NCBI GenBank assembly: GCA_020723385.1
Contig: DYIZ01000014.1
Location: 1-47,621, forward strand
Direction: 5' to 3'
Length of the DNA stretch: 47,621 nt
Source of the DNA: Candidatus Aquidulcis sp.
Lineage (GTDB): Bacteria > Chloroflexota > Anaerolineae > Anaerolineales > UBA4823
The first letter of the stretch is position 1. Each line of letters starts with the position of its first letter. Position numbers and translations under genes: made by a program. The notes beneath the pieces were generated by a model. It did not search any database. It had not been told where the DNA came from and saw nothing but the letters and a program-made list of their open reading frames with translations. This document shows positions 1,260 through 43,285 of the stretch, piece after piece.

Positions 1260-3788
1260 TTACGATAATTCGAGAATAGCCTTCTCGATCAGTTCGAAAC
1301 GCTGCGCCCAGGTGTTCTGACGGGCAAAGGCGCGGCGGGCATCAGCGATCTCGGGCGAGGTATCTTCCAGCCCCGCCTCGACCGCCGCCAGCCATTCGGC
1401 TTCGGTCGAGGCCAGGCGAACCTGATCGGCGTAATGGCGCAATTCGTCGAGATCGGTCGCCACTACGGGTTTCCCGGCGCTGAGGTATTCGTACAGCTTC
1501 ACCGGATTGGTGGCCTCGGTGAGCGGCGTCTTTTTGAAGGGGATGATGGCGACATCGAAGGCGTGTAAATAAGGAGGCAGCTCACCATAGGGCTTTTCGC
1601 CCAGGAGATGGACATTCTCCAGCCCTTTGAGCGGCTCTAAATCAGCGTAGAGCGTGCTCCCGATGAGCACGAACTGCCACAGGGGACGCGCCAGCGCCAG
1701 GGAGCGAATCAGCCCCGTGTCGAACCAGTCGGCGATCGCGCCGTAGTAGCCGATGATGGGCCGTGGCAGCCCGGAAAGCGGCGACGACCCGGCGGGTTCG
1801 GAATGGAAATGCTCAAATTCTACGCCATTGGGCACGCGCAAAGTGTGGGGATTAAGCGGCAACAGCTCGGATTCCAGGAAATGAGATGTCACCAGCGCCA
1901 GGTCGCTCTCGCGGGCCAGCCGTTCCTCCATTCGCCACATCTGTTCGGTGTTGGTGGAGAATCCCTGGTGATAATCCATGCAGTCATACACCAGCTTCCA
2001 GCCATATTTGCGGCGCAGTTGCAGGGCCAACGGTGTCCAGAAAGGCAAATCCACGAGGCAGACCGCACGTCCGATGTGGAATGTTTTTCGCAGCGCCGCG
2101 CACGCCCGAACGAGATTTGTTTCCAGCGATCCATCCATCGCTTCCTGATACAGGTTGACCGGTTGCCCGGCAGGCAAATGGATTTCAATGATACCCGGCG
2201 CTACAGACCGTGCGCGAGGGTTGGGAGTTTGGCAAAAATCGGTGCGGGCATAAAAGACACGATGACCGGCTTGAGCAAACTGGCAGGCGATGTGTTGCGG
2301 ACGCTGCTTGCGGCTTTCCCAGTCCATCACGGGGAGAACGATGACATCGTAGCCGAGGGGATTCGTTGGCCCAGCGAGATTCACCTCGCCATCGAATTCG
2401 ACAGCAATCTTTCGGGGCGGGACGAACCGTAAAACAAGTTTTTGCAGTCGGGCTTTGAAATTGCGGTAACGCTGCAAGAGTCGCCACGCACGGCTGTGCT
2501 CGATCTGCCATAACCGGCTGCTGAAGCTATCCCGCTCGGCTTCGGTTTGTGTGACTTTGGCAGCCAACGATTGCGCTTCCAATTTCTGGACTGCCAGCGC
2601 CAGGGAATACGATTGTGTGGCAGCGTCTTTCTCTGCCATCCAGGACTCCTGCGCCTGCCGCGCCGCCCGCAGGAGTGTATCCACCTCCGGGGCCAGCGAC
2701 CGCTCGCGGCAGGGAGTCACCCGGTCGTAGACATCCGCCCATTGGTGAGCATTCACCGAGAGCAGCCAGCCCTGGCGAACGGTCTCCTGCGCCCGTTGGC
2801 CCATCTCAACCCGCAAATCCGCCGATTCGACCAGCCTCGAAAGGTATTCTTCCCACTCTTCCGGCGTACCCGCCAGAAAACCATTTTCTCCGTGGATAAC
2901 GATACCGCTGTAGGTGTCCAGCCGGCTGTACACGCCCGGCGCGCCCAGGGCGCTGTATTCCAGGAATTTGATGGCGCTTTTGCAGCGGTTGAAGCGGTTG
3001 TCGCGCAGCGGGGCGATGGCGATGTCGAAGGGCTGCTTGCCGAACTCGGCGGCGAAATCGGCGTAAACGAATGTTTTGGACGGCGACCAGCTCACATTGG
3101 GTAAATCGCCCAGCGCGGCGGGCGGTCTGGCCCCCAAGAAGTGAATTTGCACGCGTCCGGCGTAACGCCGAGCCACGCTGAACAGCGCCGGGGCAACGCT
3201 GGCTACGTCCGGCAGGTGCGACTCGCCGCCCATGCAGCAGATGGTGAGAGGGGCATCGTCTTCTTGCGAAGCAATCTCGCCAGGAGCGAGGGATTGCTTC
3301 GTTGCAAAAGGCGCTCCTCGCAATGTCACATCCCGCAGCGTCCACAACTGATCGTCGAGGCAATTCGGCAGGAGGAAAACGCTCGGATTGAACAGACGCA
3401 GCAGGTCGCACAGTTGCGGCGTGCTGGCAGTGACCGCATCCGCCTCGGCGATGGCTTCTAGCATTGGAAACAGCGCCGCGGCGTAATAATGGTTGAGACG
3501 GTCGGGGTGATCGTCGGGCAGGTCAAAGAGCCAGTCATCGAGATCGAAGATCACCGGCTTGCCCTCGGCGCGCGCCCGCCCGATGGTTTGCCTATACGCA
3601 GACTGATGGCGCGGAAAATCCCGCTGGATGATGATCCTGTCGGCCTGCGACACGCGTCCGGGGTCAATCGTCTCCCCCTCATTGCCGTGAATCAGCGTCA
3701 AACCGGCCTGGCGCGCCGGCCCTACCAGCCGCAGCATCGCCAGCGGGCTGACCCAGGTATTGGTGGTGTAGGCAACGAGAGTGGTCAT
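1260..3788 (-). CDS. Double-domain GT4-type glycosyltransferase
   Basis: 842 aa, ATG at 3788. Two GT-B modules are joined in one chain. Module 1 (about 1-370) ends with a family-4 C-terminal signature (KFLEYSALGAPGVYS, then HGENGFLAGT). A helical linker follows (about 385-460) with SRAWRLLQRYR, the same kind of coiled-coil end as in the preceding gene. Module 2 (about 475-842) starts YDVIVLPVMDW and carries the donor-site motif NPVKLYEYLSAGKPVVATD. A two-module protein could add two sugars in turn or one repeating pair; this is inference. It lies 7 bp downstream of the membrane glycosyltransferase at 3796-5244 in the same operon. Confidence 0.88.
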   Translation of the reverse strand: MTTLVAYTTNTWVSPLAMLRLVGPARQAGLTLIHGNEGETIDPGRVSQADRIIIQRDFPRHQSAYRQTIGRARAEGKPVIFDLDDWLFDLPDDHPDRLNHYYAAALFPMLEAIAEADAVTASTPQLCDLLRLFNPSVFLLPNCLDDQLWTLRDVTLRGAPFATKQSLAPGEIASQEDDAPLTICCMGGESHLPDVASVAPALFSVARRYAGRVQIHFLGARPPAALGDLPNVSWSPSKTFVYADFAAEFGKQPFDIAIAPLRDNRFNRCKSAIKFLEYSALGAPGVYSRLDTYSGIVIHGENGFLAGTPEEWEEYLSRLVESADLRVEMGQRAQETVRQGWLLSVNAHQWADVYDRVTPCRERSLAPEVDTLLRAARQAQESWMAEKDAATQSYSLALAVQKLEAQSLAAKVTQTEAERDSFSSRLWQIEHSRAWRLLQRYRNFKARLQKLVLRFVPPRKIAVEFDGEVNLAGPTNPLGYDVIVLPVMDWESRKQRPQHIACQFAQAGHRVFYARTDFCQTPNPRARSVAPGIIEIHLPAGQPVNLYQEAMDGSLETNLVRACAALRKTFHIGRAVCLVDLPFWTPLALQLRRKYGWKLVYDCMDYHQGFSTNTEQMWRMEERLARESDLALVTSHFLESELLPLNPHTLRVPNGVEFEHFHSEPAGSSPLSGLPRPIIGYYGAIADWFDTGLIRSLALARPLWQFVLIGSTLYADLEPLKGLENVHLLGEKPYGELPPYLHAFDVAIIPFKKTPLTEATNPVKLYEYLSAGKPVVATDLDELRHYADQVRLASTEAEWLAAVEAGLEDTSPEIADARRAFARQNTWAQRFELIEKAILELS

Positions 3789-8929: not shown

Positions 8930-9019
8930 CAGTCATCAGTGATCAGTTGTCAGTTATCAGTGATCAGTTAGCAGTCATCAGTTTTTTCACTGACCACTGA
9001 TCACCGGTTACTGATAACT
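8930..9019. repeat. CAGTNNN heptamer tract forming a 31-bp imperfect hairpin
   Basis: Eight consecutive 7-bp units beginning CAGT (8930-8985) are followed by ACTGANN-type units in the opposite sense (8989-9019). The arms 8952-8982 and 8989-9019 pair at 24 of 31 positions around a six-base TTTTTC loop. The tract fills the rfbB-rfbA spacer and supplies the rfbB stop codon (TAG at 9020-9018). It is not followed by a T-run in the direction of transcription. Confidence 0.85.
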
Positions 9020-16184: not shown

Positions 16185-17003
16185 TTATCGCGCCAGCAGG
16201 CGTCGCAGCCATACCTTGACCTGCAGAGGCAGCCAGGCGTAAACCAACGGCCGGATTTTGGCCTTGATGGTCAACCATGACAGCCAGTTTCCTCCATCCC
16301 GGTAGTGGACGCGCAGCATCTCGGGCCAACAGCGATCATCGGACACGGTGGTTTTCCCGCCCCCGTGGAGGCGGAAATTCGCCCACAACCGAGGGTAATA
16401 CTGCAACCGGGTGACCCGCGCCAGCCGCACCCACAAATCGTAGTCCATCGCGAAATAAAACGTCGGGTCGAGCGGGCCAACCTGCCGCCACAATTCCGCT
16501 CGCCAGAAACTGGCTTGCTGTGGGATATGCACATACCCCTGCCGCAGCCGCCGGTAATCGGTCTGCGCGGCTGGGAATTTACCAATCACACCCCCAGCCT
16601 CATTAATCAGATTGGCGTCACCATAAACCATACCAACATCGGGGTGAGATTGCAAGAATGCCACGGCTTCATAAATCGCCTCAGGTAAATAAGTATCGTC
16701 CGAATTCAGCCAGGCCAAAATCTCACCCGTAGCGTGGGCGAATCCCTTATTAATGGCGTCGGTCTGACCGCGATCCTTTTCCGATACCCACCATGCCAGC
16801 CGGTCAGAATACTTCCGAATGATCTCGGTACTGTCGTCCGTCGAGCCGCCATCCACAATGATGTACTCGATTTTAGGGTAGTCCTGCTCCAACACCGAGC
16901 GAATCGTCTCTTCGAGAAACCGCGCCTGATTGAACGAAGGGGTGATAATGGAAACAAGTGGCAGGTTACAGGTGGCAGGTTGCAAGTTAGCGGGTTGATT
17001 CAT
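16185..17003 (-). CDS. GT2 family glycosyltransferase
   Basis: 272 aa. The GT-A fold has SIITPSFNQARFLEETIRSV, YIIVDGGSTDDS, and the DXD-containing AWLNSDDTYLPEA. DYDLWVRLARV near residue 185 is the ED-type catalytic region. A short basic C-terminus follows. The first ~16 residues (MNQPANLQPATCNLP) are encoded by a heptamer tract and have no counterpart in the GT domain, so the true N-terminus is effectively repeat-derived. Its ATG overlaps the stop of the upstream membrane glycosyltransferase (ATGA). Paralogues lie at 20057 and 21147. Confidence 0.88.
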   Translation of the reverse strand: MNQPANLQPATCNLPLVSIITPSFNQARFLEETIRSVLEQDYPKIEYIIVDGGSTDDSTEIIRKYSDRLAWWVSEKDRGQTDAINKGFAHATGEILAWLNSDDTYLPEAIYEAVAFLQSHPDVGMVYGDANLINEAGGVIGKFPAAQTDYRRLRQGYVHIPQQASFWRAELWRQVGPLDPTFYFAMDYDLWVRLARVTRLQYYPRLWANFRLHGGGKTTVSDDRCWPEMLRVHYRDGGNWLSWLTIKAKIRPLVYAWLPLQVKVWLRRLLAR

Positions 17004-18544: not shown

Positions 18545-20085
18545 TCTCCGTTTTCCTGTCGCAAATCGAAGATGATGTACCCATCTCCCTCGGCCACGAG
18601 GGGATAATCCCCGTAGAGCTTGTCTTTCAACTGAGGCTGCGCTTCCAACTCATTCCAGTCAGTTACCAGGAAATAGGTCATCCCTGCGGTGCGGCGGGCA
18701 AAATCATCCTCGAAATCCACCGTCTGGCCGCCCTCGCGGGCCGCGGCGAGATCGTAATCGAAGCGATACGGCCACGTCGCGATATTCCGCTGGGCGAAAT
18801 ATTTCACCCGCACGCCGTAATCCTGGGTGAGCGCAATCATCTCGCCGTCTTTGGGGATCGCCGCGCCGATCTTCTCCCAGGCGCGCCAGTTCACCCGCTG
18901 GTCGCTGCCCACCAGTTGGACACGCACCGACCAGGCCGGGTAAGCCAGCGCCAGCAGCGCCACGCCAAAGAATGCCGCCTGCCAGAATTTCGCCTGCCCC
19001 GCCAATCGCTCGAAGAACAGCGCCGCTGCCGGGGCCAGCGACAACCCGACGATGGGGATGAGCATCAGGCTGTAATAATCGTGGGTATGAATCTGCCACG
19101 GGAAAGCCAGCCCAAACAAAAAGTATCCCACCCACAGCCCAATGAGCAGGGCGCGGCTGCCGGCGCGGGCGACCGTCACACCGGCCAAACCCACGCAAAC
19201 CACAATCAGGCCGGCGATGCTTTGGACAAGATCCAGCCAGCGCACATAGAACCAGGGTTGCAGCAGCAAGTAAGCAAATGATACATTCCAGAACAGGAAA
19301 TAATCCGCCGAGCGCGCCCCGCTGTTCAGCAGGTAAAACAACGCCGGAATGGCGATCATCACCGCTGCCATCGCCCAAACCTGCCGGTTGCGCAGCCATT
19401 CGCGCGGACGACCGGAAACCAGCACCACCGCCACGGCCATCCCGGCTACCGGGAATACAACAAAAATCTTGACCAGCGCCGCCACGCCGCACAGCGCGCC
19501 CGCCAGTAAAGCCGTTTTCCAATCACGGCGCTCACGCCAGTGGTCGAGCGCCAGCGCGGCGAAGAGCATCCACATCACCATGAACGAGTCGGGCTGGAAG
19601 CGGCGGCCGACGAATACACCTAGCGGCACAATCATATAAAACGCCAGCGCCGCCAGCGCGCCGTCCACGCCCGCCATCCGCCGCGCCAGCCGGTACAGCG
19701 CCGCGCCGCCAGCCAGCCAGAACAGGATCGAATATAGGCGCGGTACCCACAACCGCTCGCCGCCCGTCACGAGATACGTGATTGCCACGATGCGCTCGAA
19801 AATTGGCGGCTCGAAGGCTTCGGCGGCGCGCCACATCGAGAGGGCTTGCTGCTGCAGCGCCGGGTCGGCGGCAGGCTGCATCTGGTAATACATGCCGCGT
19901 GCGATGAGCGCCGAGTTGAGGTGGCGATACCCCTCGTCGAGCGGGGGATTGTTCAGCTCGATGAGCCGTACGCCTAACCCCAGGGCAAACAGAAAAATCA
20001 ACGCCGCGCCCAAAAGCCACTTCGAGCGCTCAAAGAAAGTTCGTTGATGGGATAAATTACTCACGCCAGCGAACCCCATTCTCAT
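18541..20085 (-). CDS. Polytopic membrane glycosyltransferase (PMT/ArnT-like), paralogue B
   Basis: 514 aa. It has hydrophobic segments from [19 protein letters not shown], a first-loop motif [21 protein letters not shown], and a C-terminal soluble segment ([19 protein letters not shown]). It is the tandem paralogue of 17000-18544. The start at ATG 20085 overlaps the upstream GT2 gene by 29 bp; ATG 20079 is an alternative. It would use a polyprenyl-phosphate-linked sugar on the outer face of the membrane; acceptor unknown. Confidence 0.84.
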
Positions 20086-21145
20086 CCACCATCAACTGCT
20101 TCCCGCTGAACTGAACCTTGCGACGATTGCGGCGATAGGCCAGGAAGACGCCCATCAGCCCAAGCGACCCAGCTAACGCCTGAAGACCCTTACGCCACGC
20201 CTGCAGCGGAATCGGGGCTGAAAGGGGGAAAGCTTTCAGATAGTGACTCCACGCCCGGCGGTACTCACCCGCGTCCACGTAGCGTTTCGTGGCAAAGGTG
20301 TGCAGCCCGGCGTAGATTTTATGCCCGTGCTGTGCGAACACCTCCCGGTAATCGGGAGCCTTCTCCAGCGAGGGGATCAACCGAAAAGCCTCATCCACGA
20401 ACACCCCAGCCTGCGCCGTCGTCTTGGCGCTCTCGTGAACGCGTTCCACCGCCCAATACTCGCTAATGTGCAGCAACGGGTAGCTGCGGGCGATCCTGAT
20501 CCACAGGCTGTGATCGAGGACCATGTGAAAATCAGCCTGCAAGAAACCAGCCCGCTCCAATGCCTCCCGCCGCATGAACACGGCTGGCTGAAGCAGCACA
20601 TCGTAAGCCAGCAAATCCAGCAGCGAATACTGCCGGTAGGGATGCCAATCTAACAGGCGCAGATCGCCATCCACCATCACCCCGTCGCCGTACACCATCC
20701 CGACTTCCGGGTGTGACTGAAATGCCTGCACCGCGTGACTGACCACATCCGGGCGATAGTACAAATCGTCGGAGTTGATCCAGGCTACGATCTCGCCGTG
20801 GGCGTGGGCAAAGCCCTTGTTGATGGCATCGGCCTGACCCTTGTCACGCTCGGAGACCCACCAGGATAAACGGTTGGCGGTTGGCGGTTGGCGGCTGGCG
20901 GCTGGCGAGTGATGAGCTTGGGCAGCGTATTTTTCGATGATCGCCACGCTGCCGTCTGTCGAGCCCCCATCGGCCACGAGATACTCGATCGCCGGATAAT
21001 CCTGCCACAGCACCGATTGGATGGTCTGCTCGAGGTATTGAGCCTGGTTGTAGGAGGGGGTTACAATTGAAACTAACGGTTGAAGGTTCACAGGTTGGAA
21101 AGTTGAAGGTTCAGCAACGGTCATCGGTCTTCGGTCAACGGTCAT
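20057..21145 (-). CDS. GT2 family glycosyltransferase with in-frame repeat insertion
   Basis: 362 aa from ATG 21145; the longer open frame upstream is a shadow of the neighbouring gene. GT-A motifs are [39 protein letters not shown] and [10 protein letters not shown]. Residues about 78-94 ([18 protein letters not shown]) interrupt the conserved stretch [14 protein letters not shown]. The paralogues at 21147 and 16185 read straight through at this site. The interrupting DNA is five GGYTGGC heptamers. The N-terminal ~28 residues are also repeat-encoded. Homologous along its whole length to the neighbour 21147-22181 (tandem duplicates). Confidence 0.86.
20872..20906. repeat. GGYTGGC heptamer x5 inside a GT2 gene
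   Basis: Five perfect-phase units: GGTTGGC at 20872, 20879, 20886 and GGCTGGC at 20893, 20900, followed by partly degenerate sequence to ~20918. The tract lies in frame in the glycosyltransferase coding sequence, at a site where both paralogues in the window have no insertion. Confidence 0.9.
21078..21145. repeat. Compound GGTTNNN / CGGTCNN heptamer tract over a start codon
   Basis: GGTTGAA, GGTTCAC, GGTTGGA, AGTTGAA, GGTTCAG (21078-21114, with two single-base slips) are followed by four CGGTCNN units (21118-21145: CGGTCAT, CGGTCTT, CGGTCAA, CGGTCAT). The final CAT is the start codon of the GT2 gene on the minus strand. Two repeat families are thus fused back to back. Confidence 0.85.
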
Positions 21146-21146
21146 T

Positions 21147-22181
21147 TTATTCCCAGCGCGTCCCGTTCTCATCCACCACCAGCCGATGCGGGCGGTTCTG
21201 CATCCGGCGGCGCAGATTGCGATAGGCCAGGAACAACCCGCCCAGCCCGACTGCTCCCCCCATCGCCTGAACAGCTTTGAACCACAGGCGCAGCGCGGTC
21301 GGCGGGTGCAGCCGGAAAGCCTGCCAGAACTGCGCCAGCGCCTGGCGCGGCTGCCCCGCGTCAATCAATCGCCGCCCGTGGAAGGCGTGAATCCCGGCGT
21401 AGATTTCGTTGTGATATTGAGTGATCGTGGGCGCGAACAGCGGGTCTTTTTGCAGCGCGTCCATCAACACGAAAGCGTCCGGCCCGTAGTGGGCCGCCAG
21501 CGAGATGGTTTTGGCCGTCTCGTGGGAGCGCTCGACCGCCCAGAAGCCATCCACATGCACCAGCGGGCAGCGCGCCGCGATCTGGAGCCACAGCTCATGA
21601 TCGAGCAGCAGTCTCGACTCAGGCGGCAAATAGCCAGCGGAGGCCAGCGCCTCGCGGCGGGCAAACGACGCTGGCTGCAACAGCACGTTGAAGGCCAGCA
21701 AATCTTTCAGTGCGTACTGCGGGTAGCGGAACCAGTCCAGCAGCCTGCCCTCGCCATTGATCTTCAGCCCATTGGCATACACCATCCCGGCTTCGGGATG
21801 CGCCTGGAATGCCCGAACCGCCTGGCTGACCACCTCGCGGCCGTAGTAAAGATCGTCGGAGTTCACCCAGCCCACAATCTCACCGGTGGCGCGGCGGAAA
21901 CCCTTGTTGACCGCATCGGCCTGGCCGCGATCCTTCTCAGAGGCCCACCACGCCAGCCGGGACTCGTAACGCCGGATAATGTCCACACTGCCGTCTGTCG
22001 AGCCGCCGTCCACCACAAGGTACTCGATGTTCGGATAATCCTGCGCCAGCACCGATTGGATGGTCTGTTCGAGGTATTGGCCCTGGTTGTAGGAGGGGGT
22101 GATGATGGAGACCAGCGGTTGAAGAGCTTGCCCTGAGCTTGTCGAAGGGTTGGAAGGTTGGAAAGTTGAAGGAAAACCCAT
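21147..22181 (-). CDS. GT2 family glycosyltransferase
   Basis: 344 aa, ATG 22181. GT-A motifs: [39 protein letters not shown] and [10 protein letters not shown]. The C-terminal ~120 residues, after the GT domain, are shared with the tandem paralogue at 20057-21145 and end in a conserved basic stretch ([13 protein letters not shown]...VDENGTRWE). The first 22 residues ([21 protein letters not shown]) are encoded by repeats, including the 24-bp element at 22124-22147. The N-terminus is therefore unlikely to be functional sequence of ancestral origin. Substrate unknown. Confidence 0.88.
22117..22170. repeat. GGTTGRA heptamers with a nested 24-bp element (CCCTGAGCTTGTCGAAG)
   Basis: GGTTGAA at 22117-22123 is followed by a 24-bp element at 22124-22147 containing CCCTGAGCTTGTCGAAG, then GGTTGGAA, GGTTGGAA, AGTTGAA (22148-22170). 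The element encodes the peptide STSSGQAL, in frame. The same word is known to me as a dispersed repeat in many environmental bacterial genomes. Here it looks inserted into a heptamer tract. Confidence 0.8.
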
Positions 22182-23040: not shown

Positions 23041-23124
23041 AAGTACACAGGTAGACAGGTACACAAATCTTGTCTACCTGTTACCTGTCTACCTGTTTAC
23101 TTGTTTACCTGTCTACCTGTTTAC
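23041..23124. repeat. CCTGTYTA octamer tract with inverted arm
   Basis: Units CCTGTTA, CCTGTCTA, CCTGTTTA, CTTGTTTA, CCTGTCTA, CCTGTTTA (23077-23123) form an 8-bp-period tract. It is preceded by the opposite-sense arm CACAGGTAGACAGGTAC (23046-23062), which can fold against the tract. It occupies the whole spacer between the SDR gene and the DUF115-like gene. Confidence 0.8.
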
Positions 23125-23128
23125 CCTC

Positions 23129-25478: not shown

Positions 25479-26458
25479 AACCCTTCCACCAAATTCCGTA
25501 TCGTATTCGCATGGACCCGTTCCCACGCCGCCGGGCTGGAATTGGCGTTGTGCGGGGCCAGCATCACCCGGTGTTCTTTACCGTCGTTGTCCATCGTAAT
25601 CAATGGGCTGTCGTGCGGCAGCGGCTCGACCTCGTACACATCCAGCGCCGCGCCGCCAATCTGACCGCTTTGCAGCGCCGCCACTAGCGCCGCCTCGTCC
25701 ACGATGGGGCCGCGCGCCGAGTTGATCAGCACCCCCGTGGGCTTCATCAGCGCCAGGGTGCGGGCGTTGATCAGGTGATAGCTGGTCGGGTTGAGATCGC
25801 AGTTCAGGCTGACGAAGTCGGCGCGTGCCAGCAGATCGTCGAGCGCGGTCATCTCGACGCCGGTCTCGGCCAGGAAGACGTGGTCAATCTCGACGATGTC
25901 GTTGCCCAGGAGCTTCATGCCAAAGGCCCGCGCCCGCCGGATGACGGCTTTGCCGATGGTTCCCACGCCGACCACGCCCAGCGTGCACTCGCTGAGCGAG
26001 CGGCCCATCAGCTTCTCCCATCGGCCGGCCTTGACCGCCCGATCCATCCACGGCTGGCGGCGGGCGAAGGCCAGCATATAGCCCATCACTGTATCAGCCA
26101 CGGGCAGGGTGAAGGCGTTGGGCGTGTTGCGGACGGCTATTCCCAAGCGGGCCGCCGCGTCCCGATCAATCGAGTCGATTCCCGTTCCCCACTTGGAGAT
26201 GACCTTCAGCCGGGGGGCGCATGCTTCGAGTACGCGCGCCGTGTAACGGTCGTCGCCGCAGATCGCCCCATCGAATTGCCCGGCGTATTTCAGTATGTCG
26301 GCTTCTTCGAGGCGTTCATGTACTTCCGGGACGATCAATTCCAGCCCGTAGCCCTCGAGGATCGGGCGGAAACGGGGGAGGAAGGGGATCATGTAGGGAG
26401 CGGAGAAAAGGACTGTGTAGCGTCGAGGTTGGAGGGTGGAGGGTGGAGGAGTTATCAT
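25460..26458 (-). CDS. D-isomer-specific 2-hydroxyacid dehydrogenase
   Basis: 332 aa from ATG 26458 (a TTG two codons earlier is less likely). It has the NAD-binding GVVGVGTIGKAVIRRARAFG. The catalytic Arg lies in LINSARGPIVDE, the Glu in ALDVYEVEPLP, and the His in LAPHNANSS. It resembles phosphoglycerate/lactate-type dehydrogenases found in glycan and serine pathways. The first ~12 residues (MITPPPSTLQPRR) are partly encoded by GGGTGGA heptamers. In the cluster it may oxidise a sugar-derived 2-hydroxy acid; the substrate is not evident. Confidence 0.9.
   Translation of the reverse strand: MITPPPSTLQPRRYTVLFSAPYMIPFLPRFRPILEGYGLELIVPEVHERLEEADILKYAGQFDGAICGDDRYTARVLEACAPRLKVISKWGTGIDSIDRDAAARLGIAVRNTPNAFTLPVADTVMGYMLAFARRQPWMDRAVKAGRWEKLMGRSLSECTLGVVGVGTIGKAVIRRARAFGMKLLGNDIVEIDHVFLAETGVEMTALDDLLARADFVSLNCDLNPTSYHLINARTLALMKPTGVLINSARGPIVDEAALVAALQSGQIGGAALDVYEVEPLPHDSPLITMDNDGKEHRVMLAPHNANSSPAAWERVHANTIRNLVEGLGIRGQ
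26427..26447. repeat. GGKTGGA heptamer x3
   Basis: GGTTGGA, GGGTGGA, GGGTGGA in phase, inside the first codons of the dehydrogenase gene. It encodes PPPSTLQP, resembling the STFQP peptides at the starts of the GT2 genes at 20057 and 21147. Confidence 0.75.
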
Positions 26459-33065: not shown

Positions 33066-33926
33066 TTAACCTATTGCAAAGCTTGCAAACCCAAAAATCC
33101 TGGCGTGATTGATCGGGTTGGCCGCGCCGCCGCGGCGCATGTGACGGTGCGGGCGCTCGGGGCGAAAGCCAGCGCGCCCCAGGATTTCGGCAGCCGCCGT
33201 GTTCGAGGCGGTGCAGATCGTCATCGGCGAACCAAACTCAAAGGGCAGGCTCAACGCGGCGGCCAGTAAGGCTTCGGCAGCCTGGGAGGTACACGCCGCC
33301 CACGGGCCGATGCGCCGCCATTGGACAATCAGGTAACCCGCAATCATCCCATTTTCGTCGCGGGCAACCAGCGCCCGGTCGGGAAATTCCGACCGGTAGG
33401 CTTCGATGACTGCCGGGCGATGCGCACCGAAGATGGGCGCATCGAAGGCGGCGACTGCGGGAATGTCTTCCGGGCGCAGGGATTCCACCCGGATGTCACC
33501 ACCCCTTTCCGGTTTGAGAGATGCAACCGTTGGCTGCACCCACACATCCGACCGGTCATCGTCCACGAATCCCAATTTCGGGTACAGCAAAGCCCCGGCG
33601 GGCGAGGCGTCAAGCAGCGTCATCGGGCAGCCGCGAGTGTCCAGCCAGGCCAGGCAGTGTTCCATCAGCGCCCGGCCGAGGCCGCGCCCTTGCTGATGCT
33701 GAAACACTGCCATCATGCCGAGGTAGGCGAACGGCCCATAATCCACTGCGCCCACCATCCCCGCCGGTTGGCCGTCTACATCGGCCACGAACCAGCCGTC
33801 GGGCTGGAAAGCCAGGTAGCGCTGCAATTCGGGCACACGCGTTTCCAGCGTGCCAAAAGCCGAAGACAGAATCGCGTCGCAGGCGGGAAAATCAGATTGC
33901 GTGAGCGGTCGAATATTCATCGTCAT
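33066..33926 (-). CDS. Tandem GNAT N-acetyltransferase
   Basis: 286 aa, ATG 33926 overlapping the upstream stop (ATGA). The first GNAT domain (1-140) has the acetyl-CoA motif QQGRGLGRALMEHCL and ends with SPAGALLYPKLGF. The second, more divergent half (about 155-270) matches the Acetyltransf_18-like C-terminal GNAT domain (RPEDIPAVAAFDAPIFG; AGFRPERPHRHMRRG). It could acetylate an amino sugar of the glycan, as GNAT genes often do in sialic-acid-like loci, or be an unrelated passenger. Confidence 0.82.
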   Translation of the reverse strand: MTMNIRPLTQSDFPACDAILSSAFGTLETRVPELQRYLAFQPDGWFVADVDGQPAGMVGAVDYGPFAYLGMMAVFQHQQGRGLGRALMEHCLAWLDTRGCPMTLLDASPAGALLYPKLGFVDDDRSDVWVQPTVASLKPERGGDIRVESLRPEDIPAVAAFDAPIFGAHRPAVIEAYRSEFPDRALVARDENGMIAGYLIVQWRRIGPWAACTSQAAEALLAAALSLPFEFGSPMTICTASNTAAAEILGRAGFRPERPHRHMRRGGAANPINHARIFGFASFAIG

Positions 33927-35605
33927 TGCGGTATCACGAACGGTTTGCCCTGCAAGATGCCCTCTGCCGCCACCCGCTGGGTTGTAGAACCCTCCGGGGT
34001 CATTTGCCTCCAGGGGAGGCGTTTCAACACGACAAATCCGGGTTGAACGTGTGGCTCCATAAAGTCGCTAAACGGCAGTTCCGAAATGTACTGGCTGTAA
34101 TACAGGTAGCGCCGGGCGTTGCGGACGAACTCGGTAGGAACGATGATCTTCTCGGCTGACAAAAAGTCATCGGCTTGCTGGCGGTAGGCTGCGGGCGTGG
34201 GGGGCAGGAACACGGTTGGGATCTGGGTGTAGCGCGCGCTCCCGCCGCTCAACACGGCTGCGCCCATCAGCGCCGCCTCCATTCCGATCGTCGAGTTGTA
34301 CACCATCACGAACTTCGAGCGCTGGATCAGCTCGTAGGAGCTGATGAATTCGTTGGACGGCACGAAGATCACATTGGGCAGGTCACTCACCCGGCTGCGG
34401 GCGGCCCATTCGGCCACGCTCTCGCGGCTGGCTTTGCCCACACGCTGCTCGTCGGGATGGGCGCGGATGACGAAGAGCGTCTCCGGGTGGCGGCGGGCGA
34501 TGTCGAGAACAGCGTCGAGCCAAGCGAACATGGTATCGAAAACCACGTTGGCGTGAATCTGGCTGGTGTCGAAGATGACGTTGGAAAAGACGGGGACGAT
34601 CTGGTGAAACTGGGCAGCGCGCTGCAAGAACGATTCATCCAGCCCCTTCATATCCGGCCAGAAGCGGATGCCGGCCATGCTGAATTTGCCCTGGAAACGG
34701 GTTTCCAGGTACTCGTCGAGGCGGGCATCCTGCTCGGGAGTCAGCTCGAAATCGGCGGGGATCTGCACCGGGTAGGCGGTCGGATCGCCGTCGGTGAAGA
34801 AGGCCGAGAAGGGGGTGTGGCCCACCTCGTGGGCAACGACGCGAATGCCGCGCTGCCGCGCCAGCCAGCGGGCGGTGGCCTCCGGGTACATCACACCATT
34901 GAAAATCACCAAGGCCTGCGGGTCCACAGTATCGAGAAAAGCAGTGAACTCACGGGCGAGGTGATATGCGCTGAGAATGTATTCGCGGAAGAGGAAGCGG
35001 GTAGGTTCGTCATCGAGCAGGTGGTGGCGGCGCAGGGTCCAGCGTAGAGAGGGGAGGACGAGGGGGCCGAGTGGCAAGTGGCAGGTGGCAGGTGGCAGGT
35101 GATTAGTTTGAGGCTGCGAGGATGGATGAATTTCAGGACCCAGGGGGTACTCGAAACAGGAGAGTTCCTCGATCCCGAGGGTTTGAATGGCAGCAGATAG
35201 GGCGGCGTCACGCTGGAAGGTGTACCAAAGGGTTGGCGCATCGGAGAAGAGGAACTCGGAAGTGGCGATGCAGGCCTTGCATGGCGGCGGGGCAGTGGGG
35301 TTGCCCGTCTCGAAGGCTTGCGCGCTGGCCAGCACGCAGCGGCTGAGACCGGCTTTGCAAGCGAAATGCACCACCGGCGTCCCGGCGAACTGCACGGCCA
35401 CCCCCGCCAGCAGTGAAAAGGCGGCATTCTGGCTGATGCCCGAAAGGCGAGTAGTGGTGTTGAAGAATGCAACCGGTCGCTGACCAGGCTGGATTTTGGC
35501 GTGGGCGGCCAACTGCCGCCCGATGTAGGCAATATTACGCCTGTTCTGCCAGTCCTGCCATTCGCGCCGGGTGCGGCGTTGTAGACGAGGGATCAGATTT
35601 TGCAA
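33923..35605 (-). CDS. Capsule-type polysaccharide glycosyltransferase (GT-B-like)
   Basis: 560 aa. No ATG is available near the start: TTG 35605 (LQNLIPRLQRR) follows an in-frame stop closely. The second half carries HEVGHTPFSAFF, RRHPETLFVIRAHPDE and YNSTIGMEAALMGAAVLSGG, the pattern of capsular polysaccharide synthesis/export proteins (KpsC-like, PF05159-type). Residues about 165-178 (QTNHLPPATCHLPL) are encoded by GTGGCAG heptamers and interrupt the protein in frame. It may add KDO-like or nonulosonic residues, an inference from the adjacent neuB-type gene. Confidence 0.75.
   Translation of the reverse strand: MQNLIPRLQRRTRREWQDWQNRRNIAYIGRQLAAHAKIQPGQRPVAFFNTTTRLSGISQNAAFSLLAGVAVQFAGTPVVHFACKAGLSRCVLASAQAFETGNPTAPPPCKACIATSEFLFSDAPTLWYTFQRDAALSAAIQTLGIEELSCFEYPLGPEIHPSSQPQTNHLPPATCHLPLGPLVLPSLRWTLRRHHLLDDEPTRFLFREYILSAYHLAREFTAFLDTVDPQALVIFNGVMYPEATARWLARQRGIRVVAHEVGHTPFSAFFTDGDPTAYPVQIPADFELTPEQDARLDEYLETRFQGKFSMAGIRFWPDMKGLDESFLQRAAQFHQIVPVFSNVIFDTSQIHANVVFDTMFAWLDAVLDIARRHPETLFVIRAHPDEQRVGKASRESVAEWAARSRVSDLPNVIFVPSNEFISSYELIQRSKFVMVYNSTIGMEAALMGAAVLSGGSARYTQIPTVFLPPTPAAYRQQADDFLSAEKIIVPTEFVRNARRYLYYSQYISELPFSDFMEPHVQPGFVVLKRLPWRQMTPEGSTTQRVAAEGILQGKPFVIPQ
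35071..35112. repeat. GTGGCAG heptamer tract inside a glycosyltransferase gene
   Basis: GTGGCAA, GTGGCAG, GTGGCAG, GTGGCAG, GTGATTA, GTTTGAG: six 7-bp units (42 bp = 14 codons) in frame. Same family as 16958-17024, and both encode the peptide LPPATC/LQPATC-NLP or -HLP type. Confidence 0.85.
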
Positions 35606-37385: not shown

Positions 37386-38642
37386 CTACGAATTAGCCAG
37401 CAACAAATCACACAACTCCCTCACCGCCCCCTGCCCGCCGGGTTTCGACAGAACCAGGTCGGCTTGCGCTTTGGCGGCGGGGTGCGCGTCGGCGACGACG
37501 ACGGCGCAGCCCACCAGCGGGAAACAGGGCAGATCGTTGACATCGTTGCCGAGATACACCACCCGGGCAGGATCCACACCCCGCTCGTCGAGCAAGCCCC
37601 GCAGGGCAGCGGCCTTGTCGGCGATGCCTTGCAAAACAGGAAGCTTCAACTTTTGGCAGCGGGCCGACACCACCGGATTCGGCTCGGTCGAGAGCACCGC
37701 CATCTCGATGCCGGCCTTGCGCAGCAGGCTGATGCCCATCCCATCGGAGCGGCTGACCATCACACTTTCGCGGCCGTCCTGGTCTACCCAGGCGTGGTTG
37801 TCCGTCATCACGCCGTCGAAGTCAAAAATGACGAGAGATACTTTTTGGGGGAGGGGACGCTTTCCCCTATCCCCTATCCCCTCTCTCGAAGGAATAGGGG
37901 ATAGGGGATTAGGGGAGGGTGTCACCATCGGCATGTCGCCCTGGGCGATGAGCCATTCAGCGCGCAGCCAGTCGTTGCGGGTGTCAATGTCAATCGTGTA
38001 TTTCGGGTCAATCACCAGCGGCAGGATCACGTCGCCGCTGAGCGAGTGTTTTTGGTAAATCGTGCTGACGCGGATGGCGTCAATGTGGCCGGTTTGCCAA
38101 TAGGTGGGCGGGAGGGCCTGGCGGGGAGCGTTGTACGGCTCGGCCAAGCCAGGCACAGGGAGCAAGGGGGTCATGCGCCCATCGGCGCCGATGCGCCACA
38201 TCTTGTGAGGGTTCTGCCCGGAGGGCACCACGCCGCGCACGCTGTCAGCTTCAGGATGATCGAGCAGGAGCTGTACGGCGCTGTCCACGCAGTCCGGCGG
38301 GCGGACGGGCGAAGTGGGGCGCAATTGTATCACGATCTCGGGGCGATAGCCTTCGTGCTCGGCCAGCCAGCCCAGGGCATGCTCGAATACCGGCAGGTCG
38401 GTGGTGTTGTCCTGGGCGAACTCAGCCGGGCGCAAGAAGGGCGTCTCAGCCCCATAGCGGCGGGCTACGGCAGCGATTTCATCGTCATCGGTCGAAACGA
38501 TGGTGCGGGTGACGAGCCTGGATTGCACTCCGGCGGCGATGCTGTACGCAAGCAGGGGATGCCCGGCAAAGGGCAGGATGTTCTTGCGGGGGATGGATTT
38601 CGATCCGCCGCGGGCGGGGATAAGAGCTAACACTTCGGGCAT
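37386..38642 (-). CDS. Acylneuraminate cytidylyltransferase fused to KdsC-like HAD phosphatase
   Basis: 418 aa. Residues 1-~238 are a CMP-nonulosonic acid synthetase: LALIPARGGSKSIPRKN (NeuA signature), IVSTDDDEIA, QLRPTSPVRPP and IDIDTRNDW. Residues ~262-418 are a HAD phosphatase of the KdsC/YrbI type: FDFDGVMTDN (nucleophile Asp), LSTEPN, and YLGNDVNDLPC with the metal-binding Asp residues. The joint, about 242-260 (SPNPLSPIPSREGIGDRG), is encoded by CCCCTAT heptamers. Such a fusion would dephosphorylate a nonulosonic acid 9-phosphate and activate it with CTP. It stands 4 bp after the lipoprotein gene and upstream of neuB. Confidence 0.9.
   Translation of the reverse strand: MPEVLALIPARGGSKSIPRKNILPFAGHPLLAYSIAAGVQSRLVTRTIVSTDDDEIAAVARRYGAETPFLRPAEFAQDNTTDLPVFEHALGWLAEHEGYRPEIVIQLRPTSPVRPPDCVDSAVQLLLDHPEADSVRGVVPSGQNPHKMWRIGADGRMTPLLPVPGLAEPYNAPRQALPPTYWQTGHIDAIRVSTIYQKHSLSGDVILPLVIDPKYTIDIDTRNDWLRAEWLIAQGDMPMVTPSPNPLSPIPSREGIGDRGKRPLPQKVSLVIFDFDGVMTDNHAWVDQDGRESVMVSRSDGMGISLLRKAGIEMAVLSTEPNPVVSARCQKLKLPVLQGIADKAAALRGLLDERGVDPARVVYLGNDVNDLPCFPLVGCAVVVADAHPAAKAQADLVLSKPGGQGAVRELCDLLLANS
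37864..37915. repeat. CCCCTAT heptamers with inverted ATAGGGG arm at a domain joint
   Basis: CCCCTAT, CCCCTAT, CCCCTCT (37864-37884), a nine-base centre, then ATAGGGG, ATAGGGG, ATTAGGGG (37894-37915). The halves are complementary, giving a hairpin of ~20 bp. It lies in frame exactly between the cytidylyltransferase and phosphatase domains. Confidence 0.85.
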
Positions 38643-41623: not shown

Positions 41624-43285
41624 ATGACCCAAACCCGTATTCGCAATCTGATTTTCGTGCTTATCCTCGTCGCCTACGCAGCTTACGCGGCGGTGTACAT
41701 TTTCGAATCCAGCTTCGTGGTGGACGGAACGCGCTACTATGTGCTGTTCGATGATGCTATGATTTCGATGGTCTACGCCCGCAACGTGGCGCATGGACTG
41801 GGGCCGGTTTGGAACCCCGGCGAGCGAGTGGAGGGCTTTACCAACCCGCTGTGGGTGGCCTTTATGGCGCTGTTTCACTTCCTCCCGATCTCCGCGCCGC
41901 TAATCAGCTTGCCCATCCAGATCGCCGGAGGGCTGTTCTTCATCGGCAGCCTGTATTTCACCAAAAAGATCGCCGAAGAGCTTAGCCCCGGGGCGCTCGT
42001 GCCGCTGCTGGCGGTGTTCGTGACTGCTTTCTACGGGCAGCTCAGTACGTGGAGCCTGCTGGGGATGGAGGTCAGCGTCTTGCTGCTGATCACCACCGCC
42101 GCAGTCTGGCTGGCGATCCGGCAGATGAAGACCGGGAAATTCTCCCCATGGTTGTACATCCTGCTCGGAGTGGGCACGCTCGTCCGGCTGGATATGGCAG
42201 TGCCCTACCTGGCGATCCTGTCATTTCTGTTCGTGGCCGACCCCGCCAATCGCAAGCGGCATCTGCTGTGGGGCGTGAGCCTGTTCGTCGCCTTCCTGGG
42301 CGGGCAGACGCTGCTGCGCTGGCTGTACTACGGCGAATGGCTGCCGAACACGTATTATCTCAAAGTCACCGGCGCGCCGCTGCTGCTGGTTTTGAAACGC
42401 GGCGTGTTCGTCTTTGTCAAGTTCGTGTGGAACTTCAACCCGGCGCTGTTTGCGCTGCCGTTTCTGGTGATCCTGGCCCGGCGGGAAAAAGCCACGCTGC
42501 TCATGGCCTGGGTGTTCGCCGCCTTCTGCGCCTACAGCGTCTACGTGGGCGGCGACGCCTGGGAGAGCAAAGGCGGTGCCAACCGCTTCATCTCGACCGG
42601 CATCCCCCTCTTCTTCGTGCTTTTCGCTTATTCCCTGGAACTGATCCGCCAGGCGTTGGTGGGCAGTCAGCAGTCAGCACTCAGCACTCAGCAGTCAGCA
42701 GTCAGCAACGGTACAGAACACCGTGGTCAGCCCTCGGCTCTCGCCCACCGGCTCTCGGCCCTCGGCGTTATCATTTTCGCCCTCATTGGCCTGGTCAATT
42801 TCAACGCCCTGCTAGACACCAGCTCGCTCAAATACTGGCTTCTGCTCGAACGGCATCCTTTCGTCCCCGGCAGCGAGCGGTATGTGAACATCGCCAATCT
42901 CGTGGATCAGGTTTCCACCCCAGATGCCAAAGTGGCCGTGGTGACCGCCGGAATCATCGCCTATTACAGCGAACGTGACACGATTGACATGCTCGGCAAG
43001 AGCGACAAAGTCATCGCTCGCGAGCCGATGCACCTCATCCCCGGTTTGCCGTTGATTGACCTGCGCCCCGGTCACATGAAATGGAATTACGCTTACTCCA
43101 TCGGCGAGCTGAAACCGGATGTGATTGCCCAAATGTACAGCGAAAGCCCCAGGGAGGAGCGGGACAAGTGGGTTGTGGGGTACACCCCCATCGTGGTCGG
43201 CACGATCACCTTCTACGTGCGCGACGACTCGCCGTATGTGTTGTGGGATGAGGTGGAGAAGCTCAAAAGCGAAAGTAATCAGTGA
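41624..43285 (+). CDS. Polytopic membrane glycosyltransferase (GT-C-like), plus strand
   Basis: 553 aa. Hydrophobic segments begin LIFVLILVAYAAYAAVYIF. The first loop has YYVLFDDAMISMVYARNV followed by NPGERVEGFTNPLW, closely related to the motif in the 10779 gene. About ten segments precede a ~130-residue soluble C-terminus. Residues ~347-380 (VGSQQSALSTQQSAVSN and QPSALAHRLSALG) are two heptamer tracts in frame in a loop between two membrane helices. The stop TGA is within another heptamer tract shared with the convergent gene. Confidence 0.82.
   Translation: MTQTRIRNLIFVLILVAYAAYAAVYIFESSFVVDGTRYYVLFDDAMISMVYARNVAHGLGPVWNPGERVEGFTNPLWVAFMALFHFLPISAPLISLPIQIAGGLFFIGSLYFTKKIAEELSPGALVPLLAVFVTAFYGQLSTWSLLGMEVSVLLLITTAAVWLAIRQMKTGKFSPWLYILLGVGTLVRLDMAVPYLAILSFLFVADPANRKRHLLWGVSLFVAFLGGQTLLRWLYYGEWLPNTYYLKVTGAPLLLVLKRGVFVFVKFVWNFNPALFALPFLVILARREKATLLMAWVFAAFCAYSVYVGGDAWESKGGANRFISTGIPLFFVLFAYSLELIRQALVGSQQSALSTQQSAVSNGTEHRGQPSALAHRLSALGVIIFALIGLVNFNALLDTSSLKYWLLLERHPFVPGSERYVNIANLVDQVSTPDAKVAVVTAGIIAYYSERDTIDMLGKSDKVIAREPMHLIPGLPLIDLRPGHMKWNYAYSIGELKPDVIAQMYSESPREERDKWVVGYTPIVVGTITFYVRDDSPYVLWDEVEKLKSESNQ
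42663..42764. repeat. Two adjacent heptamer tracts in frame (GCASTCA x6 and GCYCTCG x5)
   Basis: GCAGTCA, GCAGTCA, GCACTCA, GCACTCA, GCAGTCA, GCAGTCA (42663-42704), then 25 bases, then GCCCTCG, GCTCTCG, CCCACCG, GCTCTCG, GCCCTCG (42730-42764). Both arrays are mirror-ordered in their variants. They encode a hydrophilic 34-residue insertion between predicted membrane helices. Confidence 0.9.

Follow-up and report, generated by a model that had tools for sequence, protein, structure and literature searches.

STRR heptamers are the short tandemly repeated repetitive arrays of cyanobacteria, and we know of no accepted mechanism for the abundance of 7-nt arrays in some bacteria. TAACTGA repeats are known in Beggiatoaceae, Cyanobacteria, and Bacteroidetes; as far as that account describes them, most repeats in the Maribeggiatoa genome are intergenic, those in genes lie mainly at protein ends, and one is an indirect repeat (MacGregor 2015, PMC4679880). 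The GGGNATC heptamers of Xanthomonas and Nostoc are described as intergenic repeats lying nearer the 5'-side ORF, whatever its orientation, and as G-rich, quadruplex-capable sequences that prefer four units and are under-represented in coding regions (Rehm 2015, PMC4692102). Rickettsia palindromic elements (RPEs; Ogata 2000) are described as families of ~150-bp elements (PMC10969869). We found no paper on heptanucleotide repeats in Chloroflexi in the open-licence literature, which is weak evidence of absence.

Here, we analyzed a heptamer array in a glycosyltransferase gene within a stretch of 47,621 nucleotides (the window), which is contig C72 of the draft genome G000 (6.43 Mb, 95.55% complete, with 4.5% estimated contamination). 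We proposed that the gene probably underwent a lineage-specific in-frame insertion of a member of a dispersed heptamer-array family.

An In-Frame Insertion in a Glycosyltransferase Gene

The gene (20057-21145, minus strand) encodes a glycosyltransferase of family 2 (GT2) with 362 residues from the ATG at 21145 (PF00535, E value 3.4e-24), and is surrounded by glycosyltransferase and nucleotide-sugar type genes. Named records with this gene were mostly Anaerolineae-type metagenome-assembled genomes, together with one isolate (Longilinea) and a few other groups. A previous sequence-only reading had noticed five tandem GGYTGGC units at 20872-20906, and TRF confirmed them as a real array on the plus strand (CGGTTGG/GGYTGGC, 20871-20907, period 7, 5.3 copies, 96% matches). 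The array scored 27 on a scale on which five first-order Markov samples of the window contained no period-7 array at the cut-off of 12 or above. GGYTGGC was also found in 86 copies in the whole window compared with 23 expected; however, 81 of these copies lie outside the array, and this excess of single copies was set aside as evidence for it.

Codon-level alignment showed that the gene is 48 nt longer than the orthologue at locus L047, than locus L014, and than both GT2 paralogues in the window (21147-22181 and 16185-17003, both minus strand). The corresponding insertion (20873-20920, minus strand) is in frame and separates the "KY" helix from the "RLxWW" strand. Thus, the earlier claims of an in-frame tract at a conserved GT2 site, and of paralogues running through that site uninterrupted, were borne out, whereas the ~18 extra residues estimated at that time proved to be 16. 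The placement of the insertion is a choice, since it slides by 1 nt either way. With only this 1 nt of shift, the short target duplications that had been suggested for the borders were absent at the GT2 site, the only one examined at the nucleotide level, and transposition with target duplication at this site was therefore unsupported.

The insertion consists of the five GGYTGGC units and two degenerate heptamers. On the plus strand it reads as three copies of GTTGGCG, two of GCTGGCG, then AGTGATG and AGCTTG, that is, seven heptamers minus one base. The units are therefore impure (three GGTTGGC, two GGCTGGC, and two degenerate); the intact ones adjoin the conserved RLxWW codons and the degenerate ones lie toward the KY helix. 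The AGTGATG heptamer resembles a CAGTGAT unit. At this site, a single, oppositely oriented GGCTGGC is present in each of the two paralogues and in the L047 orthologue. No inverted partner of the tract was reported by a search within 120 bases.

We addressed the direction of change by searching for empty sites in homologues. At the protein level, the insert was absent from all 38 aligned homologues, which represent at most 37 distinct loci (L013 is L047) and for which orthology is not proven in every case; moreover, none of the 38 had the kind of similar-length loop that would have spoken for ancestral drift. This alignment combined 29 loci from one homologue search with nine of 14 from another; of the remaining five, L051-L054 were aligned separately and were likewise empty, and L055 was left out. 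None of the 16 other rows of the second alignment, in which L051-L054 and three paralogues were new, had the insert. In particular, the syntenic orthologue in genome G009 (L047:3040-4065, on the same contig as G009:C809) is 72% identical to the GT2 gene and has no insert. The local order is kept around it (two GT2 genes, a long gene, and another GT2 gene), with two such long genes in the window. By sequence comparison, the L047 orthologue is the true "before" state of the site and the 48-nt insertion is the derived state. The sequence-only reading had regarded the paralogues as a direct before-and-after picture, and its answer was right; however, paralogues alone are insufficient, and the direction of change was established because homologues in other genomes are empty.

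The AlphaFold2 model of the enzyme (mean pLDDT 87.1, pTM 0.84) matched solved glycosyltransferases, for example SpsA (1h7q) and 6p61, and its structure neighbours confirmed the glycosyltransferase fold and nothing further. Residues 79-90 had pLDDT values below 50 and lay between a helix (66-75) and a strand (93-98). Judging from the model, the insert is predicted to be disordered in an otherwise confident fold and is most likely a floppy loop on the surface. The enzyme most likely just tolerates it, with no functional role.

Other Arrays in the Window

Further heptamer arrays were observed in the window. An inverted pair of CAGTNAT arrays, of the family of the GT2 array, lies between two genes at 8930-9013, with the CAGT arm first. 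Within genes, we observed a GTGGCAG-type array in a linker (35070-35101, plus strand, gene 33923-35605), an inverted CCCCTAT...AGGGGAT pair in a variable inter-domain linker (37863-37916, gene 37386-38642), a GCAGTCA-type array (42663-42707, plus strand, gene 41624-43285), and a further array at 26425. The arrays at 35070, 37863, and 42663 were rejected as equally clean insertions, since homologues vary in length there. The gene at 37386-38642 encodes a cytidylyltransferase fused to a HAD-type hydrolase domain, with the CCCCTAT/AGGGGAT pair in the linker. Beside the heptamers, an octamer array of TGTCTACC with seven copies was conspicuous at 23071-23125.

Heptamers are also present at the 5' ends of the GT2 genes of this cluster. 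The gene with the insertion has a CGGTCAT-type array at 21118-21145 (plus strand) and the paralogue at 16185-17003 has an array at 16954-16987; in the G009 cluster, such heptamers lie at L047:1909-1934 and 3013-3032. These 5'-end heptamers differ in sequence between G000 and G009, as if the place had been kept but not the unit. The paralogue at 21147-22181 has an N-terminal extension with heptamer-like and REP-like sequence. A word that we take to be REP-like, CCTGAGCTTGTCGAAGG, adjoins heptamer arrays in the window (22120-22172), in L047 (1863-1895), and in the gene for dihydroorotate dehydrogenase (DHODH) of L119 (8361-8522), and it is also found inside genes, where it encodes NPSTSSGQA or LSLSKG; thus, insertions appear to be compound in some cases.

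Heptamer Arrays across the Genome

The family was surveyed with a period-7 self-match scan (score 11) of the window and 39 other stretches of the genome, 714,313 bases altogether. This sample contained 60 period-7 arrays, compared with one in a Markov-3 control. Periods 6, 8, and 9 gave 4, 20, and 15 arrays at the same score, and period 8 ranked second after period 7 among periods 5-11. At score 14, G000 had 31 period-7 arrays in the 714,313 bases, whereas the G009 sample had 4 in 107,715 and the G003 sample 0 in 186,445.

Separate arrays have heptamers in common. When each of 49 places was counted once, 39 pairs of places had an identical heptamer, whereas 300 draws of random genomic 7-mers gave 1.5 such pairs on average and never more than 8; when both arms of inverted pairs were counted, there were 70 such pairs compared with 2.4 expected. 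A single array at L065:2450-2495 holds CAGTGAT, CAGTTGT, and CGGTTGG. Only one other site in the genome has three GGYTGGC units (with at most one mismatch), near position 10001 of L101, and this array continues into GGTTGAC and CAGTTGAC. As far as these two mixed arrays, L065:2450-2495 and L101, can be relied on, GGYTGGC may be tied to the CAGT core.

Among 298 genomes of the class, four tandem GGYTGGC units were found in 3 and three tandem CAGTNAT units in 46. In this genome, the latter pattern had 66 plus 86 matches, and the variable position of the CAGT unit was G in 45, T in 22, A in 18, and C in 17 of 102 cases. The backward control for CAGTNAT, TANTGAC in three units, gave dozens of matches in genomes G295, G305, and G339; its abundance in these few genomes points to a different heptamer family there. 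The backward control for GGYTGGC (7 forward and 2 reverse matches) is not independent, since reversing the word merely rotates the repeat, and its matches may also point to a few more arrays of this type than the pattern itself found. Taken together, the GT2 tract is probably one member of a large dispersed family, with units that are drifting variants of a CAGT/GGTT core.

Arrays within Conserved Genes

Called genes account for 81% of the sample but hold 29 of the 60 arrays; thus, genes have fewer arrays than their share of the sample would predict, but are by no means free of them. The simple gene caller missed the GT2 gene, and window arrays near 20871, 21118, and 43891 were mislabelled as intergenic in this count. 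Host genes encode LeuRS, PheRS-beta, a UvrD-type helicase, a DEAD helicase, DHODH, hydantoinase A and B, and an FtsW-type protein. Compared with solved structures, the array region amounts to 14 extra residues in LeuRS (1h3n) and nine in PheRS-beta (2rhs), and DHODH has 34 residues between two conserved blocks that are separated by 6 in 7t5k.

Most relatives lack the LeuRS and DHODH insertions. Among the 28 LeuRS sequences of related genomes that cover the site (L188 stops short of it, and rows L227-L230 were dropped for low similarity), 25 have a short loop, two have a loop extended by six residues, and L187 of genome G039 carries a heptamer pair of its own. In DHODH, the loop is short in 23 of 25 sequences; the two exceptions are L202, with a heptamer-like insert, and L203, with an unrelated insert. 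The second LeuRS copy of this genome (L234) also has a heptamer pair at the same site, so that one editing-domain site carries arrays in three LeuRS genes (L108:6092-8923, L234:15657-18437, and L187). Thus, arrays recur in the same protein loops, likely by independent insertion. The LeuRS residues between the arms (GED; TDPL) resemble the native turn QGDPL, and these few residues suggest that the arms flank native sequence.

Order and Direction of the Arrays

An inverted partner within 120 bases was found for 28 of the 60 arrays, with the arms of one pair counted separately, compared with 2 of 60 controls. These pairs have a fixed order. In the whole genome, a CAGT arm followed after 2-32 nt by an ACTG arm gave 81 overlapping matches, with 25 distinct sites among the matches listed, and the opposite order gave none. 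With looser patterns, the sample showed 7 to 0 for CAGT, 3 to 0 for GGTTG, and 4 to 0 for CCCCT; the exceptions were CAGC (4 to 1) and CGGTC (0 to 1), with one opposite pair each. We do not think that hairpin formation explains the fixed order, since either order makes a hairpin. The loops between the arms, of 2-32 nt as set by the search pattern, looked unrelated by eye in the listed pairs.

For intergenic CAGT arrays, the closer gene is mostly the one on the 5' side, by 13 versus 2 in the sample and 32 versus 1 in further stretches, partly as a consequence of pairing; among ten unpaired intergenic arrays the ratio was 9 versus 1, with two of the nine representing one region. Both of the former counts follow the plain CAGT rule, whereas a wider motif list (20 versus 3) was picked after the rows had been seen. 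The further stretches were partly picked for known CAGT-first pairs, and their order of 19 to 0 is therefore not independent.

Possible Mechanisms

As to how arrays are made and inserted, we infer that DNA synthesis with slippage or strand switching would seed and extend them, with a direction of growth set by the CAGT strand, inside stretches left free by selection, namely intergenic DNA and protein loops. In genes, their survival would require a net length divisible by three, and the GT2 insert would be a one-armed case. Growth by slippage was not observed, because we saw no pair of strains with a one-unit difference; the array is known from one genome, and none of the 60 relatives compared is of the same genus. 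The GT2 array itself is short and has impure units, an argument against active slippage at present. Tentatively, one could imagine that a directional process begins at the border of constrained sequence and proceeds inwards, following the CAGT strand, leaving inward-facing pairs around native sequence and invading unconstrained DNA from intergenic gaps to the loops of essential enzymes. Such a process would be either polar growth, treadmilling until halted by selection, or templated repeat addition at broken ends.

It is possible, although unlikely, that slippage in situ explains the GT2 array by itself, a chance heptamer in the gene having been tandemly multiplied with no relation to other arrays. 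In one survey, heptamers made up the largest class of long simple repeats in most of the genomes, and slippage has been proposed as the cause (Mrazek 2007, as cited in PMC4679880); the single GGCTGGC at the empty sites, although oppositely oriented, likewise speaks for this reading. However, identical heptamers are found at separate places far beyond chance and the insert itself contains the CAGTGAT-like AGTGATG; neither the heptamers common to separate arrays nor the fixed order of the pairs is explained by slippage alone.

A mobile palindromic element of the RPE or MITE kind, moved by a transposase in trans, is a very unlikely source of the arrays. Insertion in frame into unrelated conserved genes and the excess of inverted partners are both RPE-like, as far as these elements are described (PMC10969869), but the lengths of the arrays vary, the inter-arm loops look unrelated, and the GT2 tract is single-armed and has no target duplication.

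Highly improbable, in our analysis, is a directional addition in which a telomerase-like or templated process would extend the free 3' ends of broken DNA with CAGT-type heptamers, and the joining of two such ends would leave inward-facing pairs. Such addition predicts the CAGT-first order that was seen in 81 matches to none, and tandem-repeat DNA is known to be produced in bacteria by reverse transcriptases of the DRT10 type, with a motif length that differs between systems (PMC12632851); however, DRT10 products are protein-primed cDNA with 9-nt repeats in the main example, the parts of that account considered here do not mention entry into the genome (PMC12632851), and one position of the CAGT unit varies freely, unlike a fixed template. 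Most improbable of all is a phase-variable contingency repeat, in which gain or loss of a 7-nt unit shifts the frame and switches a surface-polysaccharide glycosyltransferase on or off, since, although 7 is not a multiple of 3 and the gene has neighbours of glycosyltransferase and nucleotide-sugar type, the GT2 units are impure and like arrays are present in LeuRS, PheRS-beta, and DHODH, where the off state should be lethal or costly, with the caveat that this genome has a second LeuRS copy.

Insertion of a member of a dispersed family is thus the reading that we prefer. With exact empty sites, repeated hits on the same loops, and a strict orientation rule, the mechanisms become testable, because slippage from chance seeds predicts neither common heptamers nor a fixed order. 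Array insertions of this kind also show how conserved enzymes can gain new loops.

Comparison with Known Systems

Like the phase-variable repeats of Haemophilus hmw1A and others, so far as these are described, the GT2 array has a unit length that shifts the frame and lies in a glycan-type gene; in contrast to them, it is impure and short, and like arrays are also present in essential-type genes. The RPEs likewise insert in frame into unrelated conserved ORFs (here GT2, LeuRS, and DHODH) with the protein retained; as described, however, they differ from the 7-mer arrays of this genome, which vary in length, are often one-armed, and have unrelated-looking loops (PMC10969869). No conserved palindromic family sequence was seen here, the loops of the listed pairs being unrelated by eye.

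The arrays resemble the STRR and TAACTGA repeats in their tandem direct 7-nt units and in the many dispersed copies of related units in one genome. With the TAACTGA repeats, as that account presents them, they also have in common a patchy distribution, mixed heptamers in some genomes, and some copies in genes, and TAACTGA, when read as its reverse complement TCAGTTA, is a circular permutation of the CAGTTAT found here (PMC4679880). The Maribeggiatoa repeats, to the extent described, differ in the features noted above, whereas in this genome 28 of the 60 sampled arrays are accompanied by an inverted partner and several occur within conserved enzymes (PMC4679880). Similarly, the GGGNATC repeats are dispersed heptamer arrays with a directional rule much like that observed here, but the G-rich family of this genome pairs with the C-rich arm first (4 to 0), which is the opposite sense to that described (PMC4692102). 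Taken together, the heptamer arrays of this genome are of an established kind, going by the systems described so far (PMC4679880, PMC4692102), and what is less familiar is their in-frame invasion of conserved enzymes and their fixed, inward-facing pairs.
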